From contig NZ_JALKAL010000009.1 of assembly GCF_023015765.1 (NCBI RefSeq), positions 173 to 64,172 on the forward strand: 64,000 nt of DNA, read 5' to 3'. The notes under the pieces are model-generated. The model saw only the letters and a list, made by a program, of their open reading frames with translations. It did not search any database and was not told where the DNA came from. The DNA is from Ornithinimicrobium sp. F0845 (GTDB lineage: Bacteria > Actinomycetota > Actinomycetes > Actinomycetales > Dermatophilaceae). Position numbers and translations under genes: made by a program. Below, one piece after another: positions 3,301 through 63,697 of the stretch (position 1 is its first letter; every line of letters begins with the position of its first letter).

Positions 3301-3873
3301 CTCCAGGGCGGCCAATGCGGAGACCTGTTCCTGGTCACCGCTGCGCCACCCACCCAAGGGGTCCTCACCGACCTTGGCCAACCGGGCCGGCTTCTGGGTC
3401 ACCAGGGCGCGGAGTGCCAGGAGCTCCGCGCTGCCGGGGGCGTCTCGGAACGCGGCCATGGCAGCAGACCGTCGCGCGGAGGCCACCCGGACCAGCAGGT
3501 AGACCCCCAAGACGAGGACGATCGGCACGCCAGCGGTGAGCAGACCCACCAGCGTCGCCACCCGATGAACGGCCGACTCCAGGCTGTCCCCGGCGGAGAC
3601 CAGGGCACCGCCGGCGTTGGCCACCCCGGTGAACGGAGCCTCCAGCCGATCACCCACCAAGGGCGTGTCACCGATGTTGCCTGCGATCTCGGTCATCCGG
3701 TCCTGCACCCCGGACCCCGCGGAGCGCAGCGAGTCGGCGGGACGGCTGAGCGCGTTCACCAGCCCGAAGCCCCACCGGCCGACGAGCACCCAGAGGATCA
3801 CCCAGCCGAGGACGATCAGGTCGGCGATGATCTGACGGGTGCGTCGGGACCGGGTTTCGGCATACCACTGCAT
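3256..3873 (-). CDS. Hypothetical membrane protein with two TM segments
   Basis: A 205-residue protein starting [14 protein letters not shown] at an ATG (3873). One membrane segment is near residues 16-38 ([19 protein letters not shown]) and a second near 105-128 ([20 protein letters not shown]). The segment between them is Ser/Ala-rich and probably extracytoplasmic; the C-terminal region after the second helix is charged and helical. No family with a known function is recognised. Its start is only 12 bp from the divergent xerD start, and its 3' end overlaps the end of lgt by 45 bp. Confidence 0.75.
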
Positions 3874-3885
3874 GAGAATGACGGT

Positions 3886-4869
3886 ATGTCCCCAGCCCCC
3901 GCCGCCCCAGCACCGGACCGCCTGAGTCGCGCGGTGCGCGGCTGGCTGGACCACCTGCGGGTGGAACGGGGCGCCTCGGTGCACACCCTGAAGGCCTACG
4001 AGCGCGACCTGGGGCGGTATCTGAGCTTCCTGCGCGGGCGGGGCATCACCGCACCGGAGGGTGTGTCCGAGCAGGCGGTCACCGACTTCCTGGCGCACCT
4101 GCGGACCGGGCACGGGGAGCGCAAGCCGCTGGCCCCCTCCTCGGCGGCCCGGGCGCTGGTCGCGGTGAGGGGCTTCCACAAGTTCCTCGCCGCCGAGGGT
4201 GACGTGCCGAACGACCCCGCGCAGGTGGTGGCGCCCCCTACGCCGGCCCGTCGGCTGCCCAAGGCGATCAGCATCGGGGAGGTCGAGCGGTTGCTCGACG
4301 CTGCCGCAGTGGGGGACACCCCGGCGAGCCTCCGCGACCGGGCGCTGCTCGAGGTGCTCTACGGCTCGGGAGCGAGGGTCAGCGAGGCCATCGGTCTGGA
4401 CGTCGACGACATCGACCTGGGGGACGGGGCAGCAGGGCAGTATGACGAGGGCACGCCAGGTGCGGTCGTGCGCCTCTTCGGCAAGGGCAACAAGGAGCGG
4501 ATCGTCCCCCTGGGCCGGTACGCGACGGCGGCGCTGGATGCGTGGTTGGTGAGGGGCAGGCCCACGTTCGCAGCCAAGGGGAAGGGCACCGCGGCCGTCT
4601 TCCTCAACCAGCGGGGTGGGCGACTGTCGCGGCAGAGCGCGTGGAACGTCATACAGCAGGCCGCAGAGCGGGCCGATCTGTCGGGTCACGTGAGCCCGCA
4701 CACGCTCAGGCACTCCTTCGCCACCCATCTGCTGGACGGGGGAGCGGACGTGCGGGTCGTGCAGGAGCTCCTCGGGCACGCCTCGGTGACGACCACCCAG
4801 ATCTACACGCTCGTCACGGCCCAGCACCTGCGCGAGGTCTATGCCCAGGCCCATCCCCGCGCGCGATGA
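3886..4869 (+). CDS. xerD: Tyrosine recombinase XerD
   Basis: XerD, with XerC, resolves chromosome dimers by recombination at dif. The N-terminal SAM-like core-binding domain (about residues 8-105) and the C-terminal catalytic domain are both present. The full tyrosine-recombinase set is visible: R164 ([10 protein letters not shown]), K200 (GKGNKER), H272-x-x-R275 (SPHTLRH), H298 ([12 protein letters not shown]) and nucleophile Y307. At 327 residues it is slightly longer than E. coli XerD (about 298), partly from an insertion near [16 protein letters not shown]. The parA-like gene follows, as in other actinobacteria. A dif-like site is in the same window at 62.66 kb. XerC cannot be fully excluded, but the synteny favours XerD. 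Confidence 0.92.
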
Positions 4870-18932: not shown

Positions 18933-21743
<2,811 letters not shown>

Positions 21744-61627: not shown

Positions 61628-62491
61628 ATGCACACGCTCGCCCATGACGGACTCGTCCTCGACGTCCTGGACGGTGGGCCGACCGACGGCGAGCTGGTGG
61701 TCCTGCTCCACGGCTTCCCGCAGGACGCCACCGCCTGGGGGAGAGTGGCCCCGCACCTGCACCGGGCCGGATTGCGGACCCTCGCCCTGCACCAGCGGGG
61801 GTACTCTCGCGGCGCGCGGCCCCGGCGAGTCTCGGCATACTCCCTGCGCGAGCTGGTCGGCGACGTGCTCGCCCTGCTCGACGCTGCCGGCGCGGAGCGA
61901 GCCCACATCGTCGGGCACGACTGGGGCGGCGCCGTCGCCTGGACGCTGGCACAGCGGCACCCCGAGCGCGTGTCGAGCCTCGTGGTCCTGTCGACGCCTC
62001 ACCCGGCTGCCTTGTGGTGGGCCATCCGGCACTCCGACCAGCTGGGCCACAGCTGGTACATGCTCGTCTTCCAACTCCCGGTCGTGCCTGAGTTGCTCCT
62101 GGCACGGCTGCTGCGCTCCGGCGCCCTCCACCGGTGGGGGGTCCCGGGTGGTGACAGCCGCCGATATGCCCTCCGGCTGGGCCGGTCACGAGCGCTTCGC
62201 GGACCGATCAACTGGTATCGAGCAGCGCTGCGGCAGGCGCTTCGCCGACCCGCTGAGCTGGAGACCGCGGTGACGGTGCCGACGACGTATGTCTGGGGCG
62301 CCCGGGACCCGTTCCTCGGTCGTGTCGCGGCCGAGCGCACGGCACGGCACGTCGCCGGTGACTACCGCTTCGTCGAGGTCGACGCCGGCCACTGGTTGCC
62401 GGAGCGGGAGCCGGTGCTCGTGGCTCAGGAGGTCCTGGCGCGTATCGCCGCCGTGAGTCACGGGGTCGGCGCGCCAGGGCATGAGGACTGA
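61628..62491 (+). CDS. Alpha/beta-hydrolase, epoxide hydrolase-like
   Basis: A 287-residue hydrolase with LLHGFPQDATAWGRVAPHL and the nucleophile motif HIVGHDWGGAVAWTLAQRHP; the Asp nucleophile (GHDWGG) is that of epoxide hydrolases and haloalkane dehalogenases. The catalytic His is in DAGHWLPEREP. Two Tyr for epoxide activation are not verified. Start ATG 61628. Last gene before the dif-like site. Confidence 0.88.
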   Translation: MHTLAHDGLVLDVLDGGPTDGELVVLLHGFPQDATAWGRVAPHLHRAGLRTLALHQRGYSRGARPRRVSAYSLRELVGDVLALLDAAGAERAHIVGHDWGGAVAWTLAQRHPERVSSLVVLSTPHPAALWWAIRHSDQLGHSWYMLVFQLPVVPELLLARLLRSGALHRWGVPGGDSRRYALRLGRSRALRGPINWYRAALRQALRRPAELETAVTVPTTYVWGARDPFLGRVAAERTARHVAGDYRFVEVDAGHWLPEREPVLVAQEVLARIAAVSHGVGAPGHED

Positions 62492-62656: not shown

Positions 62657-62684
62657 ACTTGACATAATGTGTCTTATCGGCGTT
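62657..62684 (-). other. Candidate chromosomal dif site (XerC/XerD target)
   Basis: On the minus strand this 28-mer consists of XerC arm AACGCCGATAA, 6-bp centre GACACA, and XerD arm TTATGTCAAGT. The XerD arm differs from E. coli TTATGTTAAAT at two places. The arm and centre agree with the actinobacterial dif consensus, as I recall it, at all but about three places. The site lies in the AT-rich part of a gene-free region (62492-62708), between convergent genes, as expected for dif. XerD is encoded in the same window. Confidence 0.8.
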
Positions 62685-62708: not shown

Positions 62709-63167
62709 TCACTGGTCAAGCATCTCGTCGAGCTCGGCGTCGGTGAACTCGAAGTCGTCTCCGATCCAGACTTCCCTCGCCAGCGAGCCGCGCGCCGCGA
62801 GGAACCGGCCACCTGACTTCACCTGTTCGAGTCTGTCGTGGTCGCTCGCGTGCCCTGCGGCACGGTGCAGCACGGCGTGCGTCGGAGTGAGCTCGAGCGC
62901 GCCGTCGTCGCGGATCCTCGCGTCACCGTCGATGATCAGCGTGTGGCCACCGGCGTCCTGCGGCGGGAGCATCACCGTGACCTCCGGCAGTTCGGGAACG
63001 GTCCGCCGCGCCGTGCGGCCCGGTTCGACGATCACCAGGACGTTGCCCACGAGCTGTGGGAACACCTGTGCGACATGCGGACGCCCGTTGCGTCCGGACA
63101 GCAGGTACGCCGTGTGGTGGCGACCGAGCGCCTCGCCGAGTTCCGCCAGGTTGACCGGGATGCTCAT
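62709..63167 (-). CDS. PPOX-like (split-barrel flavoprotein family) protein
   Basis: A 152-residue protein: MSIPVNLAELGEALGRHHTAYLLSGRNGRPHVAQVFPQLVGNVLVIVEPGRTARRTVPELPEVTVMLPPQDAGGHTLIIDGDARI. The pattern of strands and TARR/TVML segments fits the pyridoxamine-phosphate-oxidase-like split-barrel family, which binds FMN, F420 or haem. Start ATG 63167 overlaps the barstar stop, so it is translated with it. A cofactor cannot be stated. Confidence 0.65.
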   Translation of the reverse strand: MSIPVNLAELGEALGRHHTAYLLSGRNGRPHVAQVFPQLVGNVLVIVEPGRTARRTVPELPEVTVMLPPQDAGGHTLIIDGDARIRDDGALELTPTHAVLHRAAGHASDHDRLEQVKSGGRFLAARGSLAREVWIGDDFEFTDAELDEMLDQ

Positions 63168-63697
63168 GCCCCCATCATGCCCGGATCGCTGTCGTCGCGC
63201 GGAGTGTCTAGCAAATTCCATAGAGGACGCTGACTGGGCTCGGGGCGGTCGAAGTCCGGGCCGTCGCCCACGGCGAAGACCACGAGCTCGATCCGGGTCC
63301 TGTTGGCCGGGTTCTGCGCGGGCATGTCGCCGATCTGCACCTCCAGCAGCCCCCAGCCGACCTCCGCCACCGTGGCCGGAGCGGCACGCGCCGCAACGTC
63401 CAGGTGACGCCAGATGACGGCCACCCGCTCGCCGTCGTGGTCCACGACATACTGCCCGATGCAGTCGTTGAAGGCGTCCCAGCCGGCGCCGTACCAGTCC
63501 GGGAAGCCGAAGACCTCCCCGAGGTGCCGGTGGGCGGCGGCCCGGGAGGTCATCCGCCGCCCGTCCAGCTCCACGCGCAGATAGCCCCAGCGGTCCAGGT
63601 GGGCGTCCAGCAGCGGCCACGCGTCCACGTGGACGTGGGACAACGGACCGGACCGCAGGAAGGGCAGGTCGCGCCGGGCGTTCGGCCGATCGCTCAC
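63164..63697 (-). CDS. Barstar family protein
   Basis: A 177-residue protein with the barstar signature VELDGRRMTSRAAAHRHLGEVFGFPDWYGAGWDAFNDCIGQYV. Barstar inhibits the RNase barnase. This one has a long C-terminal extension (about 90 residues, LEVQIGDMPAQNPANRTRIELVVFAVGDGPDFD). No ribonuclease gene is seen on either side, so it is an orphan inhibitor or acts on another target. Start GTG 63697. It overlaps the PPOX-like gene. Confidence 0.8.
   Translation of the reverse strand: MSDRPNARRDLPFLRSGPLSHVHVDAWPLLDAHLDRWGYLRVELDGRRMTSRAAAHRHLGEVFGFPDWYGAGWDAFNDCIGQYVVDHDGERVAVIWRHLDVAARAAPATVAEVGWGLLEVQIGDMPAQNPANRTRIELVVFAVGDGPDFDRPEPSQRPLWNLLDTPRDDSDPGMMGA

Follow-up and report, generated by a model that had tools for sequence, protein, structure and literature searches.

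The 64,000-nucleotide stretch of the Ornithinimicrobium sp. F0845 genome analysed here (the window; from contig NZ_JALKAL010000009.1) contains near its right end a 28-bp sequence resembling a dif site, which raises the question whether this is the chromosomal dif site and whether the replication terminus lies here. We regard it as nearly certain that window positions 62657-62684 are the chromosomal dif site. The site is an ordinary and well-supported one, and both the site and the polar motif that converges on it are of known kinds. The XerC arm, 6-bp centre and XerD arm that had been described for the 28 bp are present with exact coordinates, and they match the lineage consensus. In the usual orientation, which is the minus strand read 5'-3', the site is AACGCCGATAA GACACA TTATGTCAAGT; the plus strand at 62657-62684 reads ACTTGACATAA TGTGTC TTATCGGCGTT. 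The features concerned are as follows, in window coordinates.

1679 to 61743, plus strand: GGGGGAG, 33 copies (first at 1679, last at 61737), all pointing towards dif
3565 to 4869, plus strand: xerD, tyrosine recombinase (TIGR02225, family match 3943-4863)
18933 to 21743: gcvP, glycine cleavage P-protein gene
61628 to 62491, plus strand: alpha/beta hydrolase gene (PF00561), left of dif, convergent
62657 to 62684, minus strand: dif site, 28 bp (sequence, copy number, shuffles, conservation)
62657 to 62667: XerD arm of dif, left side on the plus strand
62668 to 62673: dif centre, 6 bp
62674 to 62684: XerC arm of dif, right side on the plus strand
62709 to 63167, minus strand: small gene (TIGR03618, weak), right of dif, convergent

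The AT-rich intergenic setting between convergent genes was also described correctly. The site has a GC content of 39% versus 71% for the window, where 38 of the 63,973 28-mers are equally or more AT-rich, and the gap between the two genes measures 217 bp with 61% GC. The product of the small gene matched TIGR03618 (F420-dependent PPOX-class) with 25.8 bits, under the cut-off of 79, and had no match in the Pfam search. A Barstar-like protein (PF01337, 54 bits) is encoded two genes from dif, at window positions 63164-63697. Compared as an inverted repeat, the arms agree at only 5 of 11 positions, and 12,706 of the 63,973 window 28-mers have an arm symmetry at least as high; the arms are therefore recognised through family conservation, not symmetry. 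With the dif sequences of E. coli and B. subtilis used as probes, the best window match was in both cases this site (17 vs 16 letters and 18 vs 16 letters, respectively).

The full 28-mer, at up to three mismatches, has a single copy in the 4.2-Mb draft genome (59 contigs, 99.9% complete), as a chromosomal dif site should, and the backwards control gave none. Its core CGCCGATAANNNNCATTATGTCAAGT, also at up to three mismatches, has one copy in the window and none in 100 shuffles. This core pattern was present in 49 of the 58 genomes searched, our own included, with exactly one match in 47 of these 49, two in G009 and four in G033; the backwards control matched in none of the 58. Nine of the 58, among them G022 of the same genus, had no match at three mismatches. 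In a class-wide sample, a shorter dif pattern with one mismatch was matched in 122 of 197 genomes and unmatched at that threshold in 75, including all 19 of family f34, whose genomes measure 6-11 Mb, and all 10 of family f19; G055 of the latter family does have a dif match at three mismatches, though none with the shorter pattern at one.

Conservation among 20 genus loci (our own plus those of the 19 genomes, out of 29 other matching ones in the genus, that had a locus listed) amounts to 1.0-2.7 bits at each arm position, 0.47 and 0.95 bits at the bases immediately outside the site and at most 0.63 bits farther out, while two of the centre bases are free. The site resembles the actinobacterial dif sites surveyed by Kono et al. 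2011 in its 28 bp, 11-6-11 layout, single copy and position opposite the origin; in its accessible parts, that survey gives a dif for 66 of 66 single-chromosome Actinobacteria (PMC3025954). A comparison of the C. aurimucosum dif with the actinobacterial dif consensus of Hendrickson and Lawrence 2007 is also on record in the accessible text of PMC2830990. The present site differs in position 12 of 28, the first centre base, which is G in 19 of the 20 genus loci, whereas T is common elsewhere; since G (families f22 and f38) and C also occur in other families, the G of the genus is a minor variant.

A scan of named genomes with the genus-type dif centre yielded at least 120 loci, and 119 of the 120 listed are labelled as actinobacterial, the exception being L078 (Fonsibacter). 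Among the loci listed, the best named records in a blastn search with the window were mostly Ornithinimicrobium (L130, L089, L065, L074), followed by Nostocoides jenkinsii and Serinicoccus, which points to the Ornithinimicrobium group as the most likely source of the window. Ten loci (L078, L088, L107, L117, L155, L091, L095, L119, L149, L156) have 45-50% GC and are labelled Fonsibacter, Bifidobacterium breve, Streptomyces griseus or Streptomycetaceae. Six of these ten have in common, among the matches listed, the gcvP stretch of lake actinobacteria, and the ten are possibly mislabelled bins. Many dif-bearing loci of lake actinobacteria (up to 8 kb long) contain a stretch homologous to the gcvP of the window, so that gcvP seems to be part of an old terminus-side neighbourhood.

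The genome encodes the proteins expected to act at such a site, namely XerD (TIGR02225, 336 bits vs a cut-off of 329.6), XerC (best family TIGR02224, 323 bits, slightly under the curated cut-off of 335) and an FtsK gamma domain (PF09397, 86 bits vs a cut-off of 30.6). The part of the FtsK motor that was scanned matched the FtsK model best, with 421.5 bits, under the model cut-off of 1566. The preliminary description had paired the site with xerD, and of this claim the nearness stands within the family and the pairing does not. In 19 family members xerD lies 33-83 kb from dif, at most 2.2% of the genome, but over 74 genomes from 19 families the distance ranges from 13 to 671 kb, with 13-15 kb in f38 (19 genomes, all small) and 226-671 kb in f35, f22 and f32. 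These distances come from genomes with both features on one listed contig and rounded genome sizes, and they favour short values, as drafts with the two on different contigs, genomes outside those listed and G009 (xerD in pieces) are left out. G055, which is outside this set, has xerD 290 kb from dif and transcribed towards it. A functional link through proximity was accordingly rejected; because the two can be as far as 671 kb apart in other families, the nearness of xerD is a matter of gene order and no requirement, i.e. an inherited terminus-side position. In 74 of the 74 genomes its transcription runs towards dif, no more than the usual co-orientation with replication, and in 63 the gene is on the side of the XerD arm.

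As our own genome is in 59 contigs, the distance to the origin is measurable in relatives and not in this assembly. With dnaA standing for the origin and a single contig treated as circular, dif is close to the point opposite the origin in these relatives; its distance from the antipode is 0.4-3.0% of genome length in G002, G004, G010, G011 and G012. G006, the single-contig relative that matches best around xerD (complete genome, length 4092907), has dnaA at 298102 and dif at 2323943, hence 20.6 kb (0.5%) from the antipode of dnaA, a figure that is uncertain by about 100-200 kb because the strand-biased heptamer GGGGGAG described below is reversed near dnaA. In the stretches sampled at positions 200, 300 and 400 kb, on both sides of this gene, GGGGGAG runs mostly the reverse way (four plus and one minus, one plus and six minus, and one plus and two minus copies), as would be seen with an inversion around dnaA or with an origin 100-200 kb away from it.

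The GC skew, which had been proposed as a check on the terminus, agreed in sign and was offset in position. The mean skew in G006 is +0.013 before dif and -0.016 after it (48 sampled stretches, 960,000 bases), with single stretches contrary to the trend on both arms. The cumulative maximum, however, lies 103 kb before dif in G006 (within 2.20-2.42 Mb) and 44 kb before dif on our own contig, where it forms a broad plateau at contig positions 3.4-41 kb. This offset goes mildly against the test that the preliminary description had itself set, and GC skew was discarded as a locator of dif; it places the terminus only roughly. The 103 kb correspond to 2.5% of G006 and are thus within the published scatter, as the dif-skew outliers of Kono et al. 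never exceed 3% of genome size, and the accessible text of the same survey describes dif as the end point of chromosome segregation, where forks need not meet exactly (PMC3025954). On both our own contig and G006, the skew switch lies on the xerD side of dif and the GGGGGAG switch at dif.

GGGGGAG was chosen by ranking oligomers for leading-strand excess in sampled G006, where it is the top heptamer (289:27); counts from G006 are for this reason not independent, and those from our own contig, G038, G044, G046 and the 120 listed contigs are. On our own contig, GGGGGAG points towards dif in 65 of 65 cases, with 33 of 33 copies on the plus strand to the left and 32 of 32 on the minus strand to the right. 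The switch falls in the interval from 61909 to 64704 of the contig, which includes dif at contig position 62829, so that the flip in polarity that had been predicted for this point does occur, just outside the window. Since all 33 window copies are on the plus strand, the flip is invisible from the window alone; the first minus-strand copy, at contig position 64704, is beyond it. Their number is close to that in a dinucleotide shuffle (33 vs 31.5) and only their polarity is unusual. The polarity switch could thus be narrowed down to 2.8 kb in a draft genome, without a closed chromosome, whereas GC skew would have set it tens of kb off. Together with the dif site itself and its antipodal position in relatives, the flip supports the earlier placement of the terminus in the window.

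Other families behave in the same manner. In G046, G044 and G038, which represent three other families, GGGGGAG again heads the ranking and switches strand no more than 1.5 kb from dif (115/120, 55/58 and 21/22 copies, respectively). Among the 120 dif-bearing contigs listed, it is the most convergent heptamer, with 322 of 326 copies pointing towards dif, although these 322 are not independent events because many of the contigs come from closely related lake bacteria; AGGGGAG (201:8) and GGGGGAT (90:3) are polar as well. It is found on 109 of the 120, and 105 of these 109 have no copy pointing away. Copies pointing away are concentrated in Frankia/Pseudofrankia (3, against 9 towards dif) and Gordonia (1, against 2 towards dif), again among the contigs listed. 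Within about 120 kb of dif in G006, 90 of 91 copies conform, with a change point between -740 and +781. Architecture-imparting sequences are, in the accessible text of PMC5993296, strand-biased oligomers that become more abundant and more biased towards the terminus. GGGGGAG shows this rise in G006, mainly at the two ends: 53 copies per 100 kb with a polarity of 0.96 at less than 50 kb from dif, a flat 28-33 per 100 kb with 0.89-1.00 from 50 kb to 1.7 Mb, and 14 with 0.59 beyond 1.7 Mb.

GGGGGAG is a published actinobacterial architecture-imparting sequence. The octamers G(A/T/C)GGGGGA and (T/C)GGGGGAG have been used to place dif in Corynebacterium genomes (accessible parts of PMC2830990, PMC3022926, PMC3350403). 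They are attributed to Hendrickson and Lawrence 2006, and C. aurimucosum has 856 leading and 61 lagging copies (PMC2830990). The motif found here is like these octamers in core, strand polarity and convergence on dif, but its flanks matter little: with each single flank the leading fraction is 0.75-0.94 in G006 and 1.00 on our own contig, so that the unit looks like the heptamer. Motifs of other bacteria were poor markers of polarity. GAGAAGGG is the SRS of B. subtilis and GAAGAAG the corresponding motif of L. lactis, and these were weak or without bias; the E. coli KOPS GGGNAGGG was weakly polar (0.62 in G006, 0.67 on our own contig).

In the accessible text of PMC2680272, the E. coli KOPS is read by FtsK gamma. 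The system described here resembles that of E. coli in having an oriented G-rich motif that converges on dif, the run GGGGAG and an FtsK gamma domain; it differs in the recognition helix, which is GFAKAGRLMDLME here and GYNRAARIIEQME there. A helix of the form GFA(K/R)AGRLMD was found in 13 of 13 genomes (our own and 12 picked ones) from 10 families. The corresponding helix in the FtsK gamma chain 2j5p, presumably the E. coli protein, is GYNRAARIIE. Residues R1300, E1303 and E1306 are those changed in a KOPS-blind E. coli FtsK mutant (PMC2680272, accessible part); placed by alignment, R1300 and E1306 are kept in the actinobacterial helix and E1303 is replaced by D. A near-invariant helix and a widely shared motif are what would be expected if the helix reads the motif, and the relation is a correlation. 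From these sequence comparisons, GGGGGAG is probably the sequence that orients FtsK in most of the actinobacterial class, read by this near-invariant helix. If so, one motif and one helix have been kept together, with the motif present near dif in contigs whose GC content runs from 41% to 74%. We found no report of an actinobacterial FtsK reading GGGGGAG in the titles and abstract openings of the open-access literature searched, and the accessible parts of PMC13277299 and PMC11898615 contain no word beginning with GGGG.

By homology with characterised systems, the site would act on chromosome dimers, which form when two sisters become joined through an odd number of crossovers. FtsK, the pump at the septum, would load on strand-oriented G-rich motifs, here most likely GGGGGAG, and travel along either chromosome arm towards dif. 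There it would meet XerC and XerD on their 11-bp arms and activate XerD, which would start strand exchange across the 6-bp centre and give two monomers. Binding of the site by XerC/XerD, recombination there and the reading of GGGGGAG by FtsK are all inferred from this analogy.

Two other origins of the 28 bp have to be weighed. A chance AT-rich stretch that merely looks like dif is so improbable that it hardly needs consideration: we found nothing in its favour, the absence of the core from all 100 shuffles and of the backwards 28-mer from the genome speaks against it, and the drop in conservation at the edges of the 28 bp refutes it. Very unlikely, though less so, is a dif-like attachment site in, or left behind by, an integrated mobile element or plasmid dependent on the host XerCD, with the real dif elsewhere. 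Such elements exist (PMC9765430), and in the relative G033 three contigs together carry four dif-like sites, but our genome has one site, most relatives have single sites and the oriented motifs converge on 62657-62684; a second, better site would have to be hidden in an assembly gap. Nor does a neighbouring recombinase suggest such an element; within the XerD family, to which this comparison is confined, the genome has four matches, of which one is xerD, at a distance of 57.8 kb, and the remaining three lie on different contigs.

A chromosomal dif site would still leave room for GGGGGAG polarity to arise from a mutation or gene-direction bias and not from FtsK guidance, the flip then marking the usual meeting point of the forks. 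We consider this explanation improbable. It would fit the excess of G on the leading strand, the shuffle-like number of copies in the window and the mostly rightward genes left of dif (46.5 kb vs 11.6 kb). Right of dif, however, 15 copies are sense, 16 antisense and 1 outside called genes (genes called by GC at third positions), and this even split argues that the polarity is no effect of gene direction; left of dif the numbers are 26, 3 and 4. Of the 21 one-letter changes of GGGGGAG (0.91 leading in G006), 20 fall to 0.42-0.64 in that genome. The single change that stays high is AGGGGAG (0.77); GGGGGAC, at 0.64 in G006, reaches 25:6 on our own contig. Further evidence against a general bias is that density and polarity peak near dif and are lowest near the origin, and that GC skew switches 44-103 kb away whereas GGGGGAG switches at dif.

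The dif-like sites of G033, a member of the same family, are at C1:1757713, C2:391976, C2:627411 and C5:56679. The GGGGGAG copies at up to 10 kb converge on the C1 site in 11 of 11 cases, on C2:627411 in 6 of 6 and on C5:56679 in 3 of 3, whereas the three copies near C2:391976 are all to one side of it. This may be a sign of secondary replicons, each having a dif of its own.
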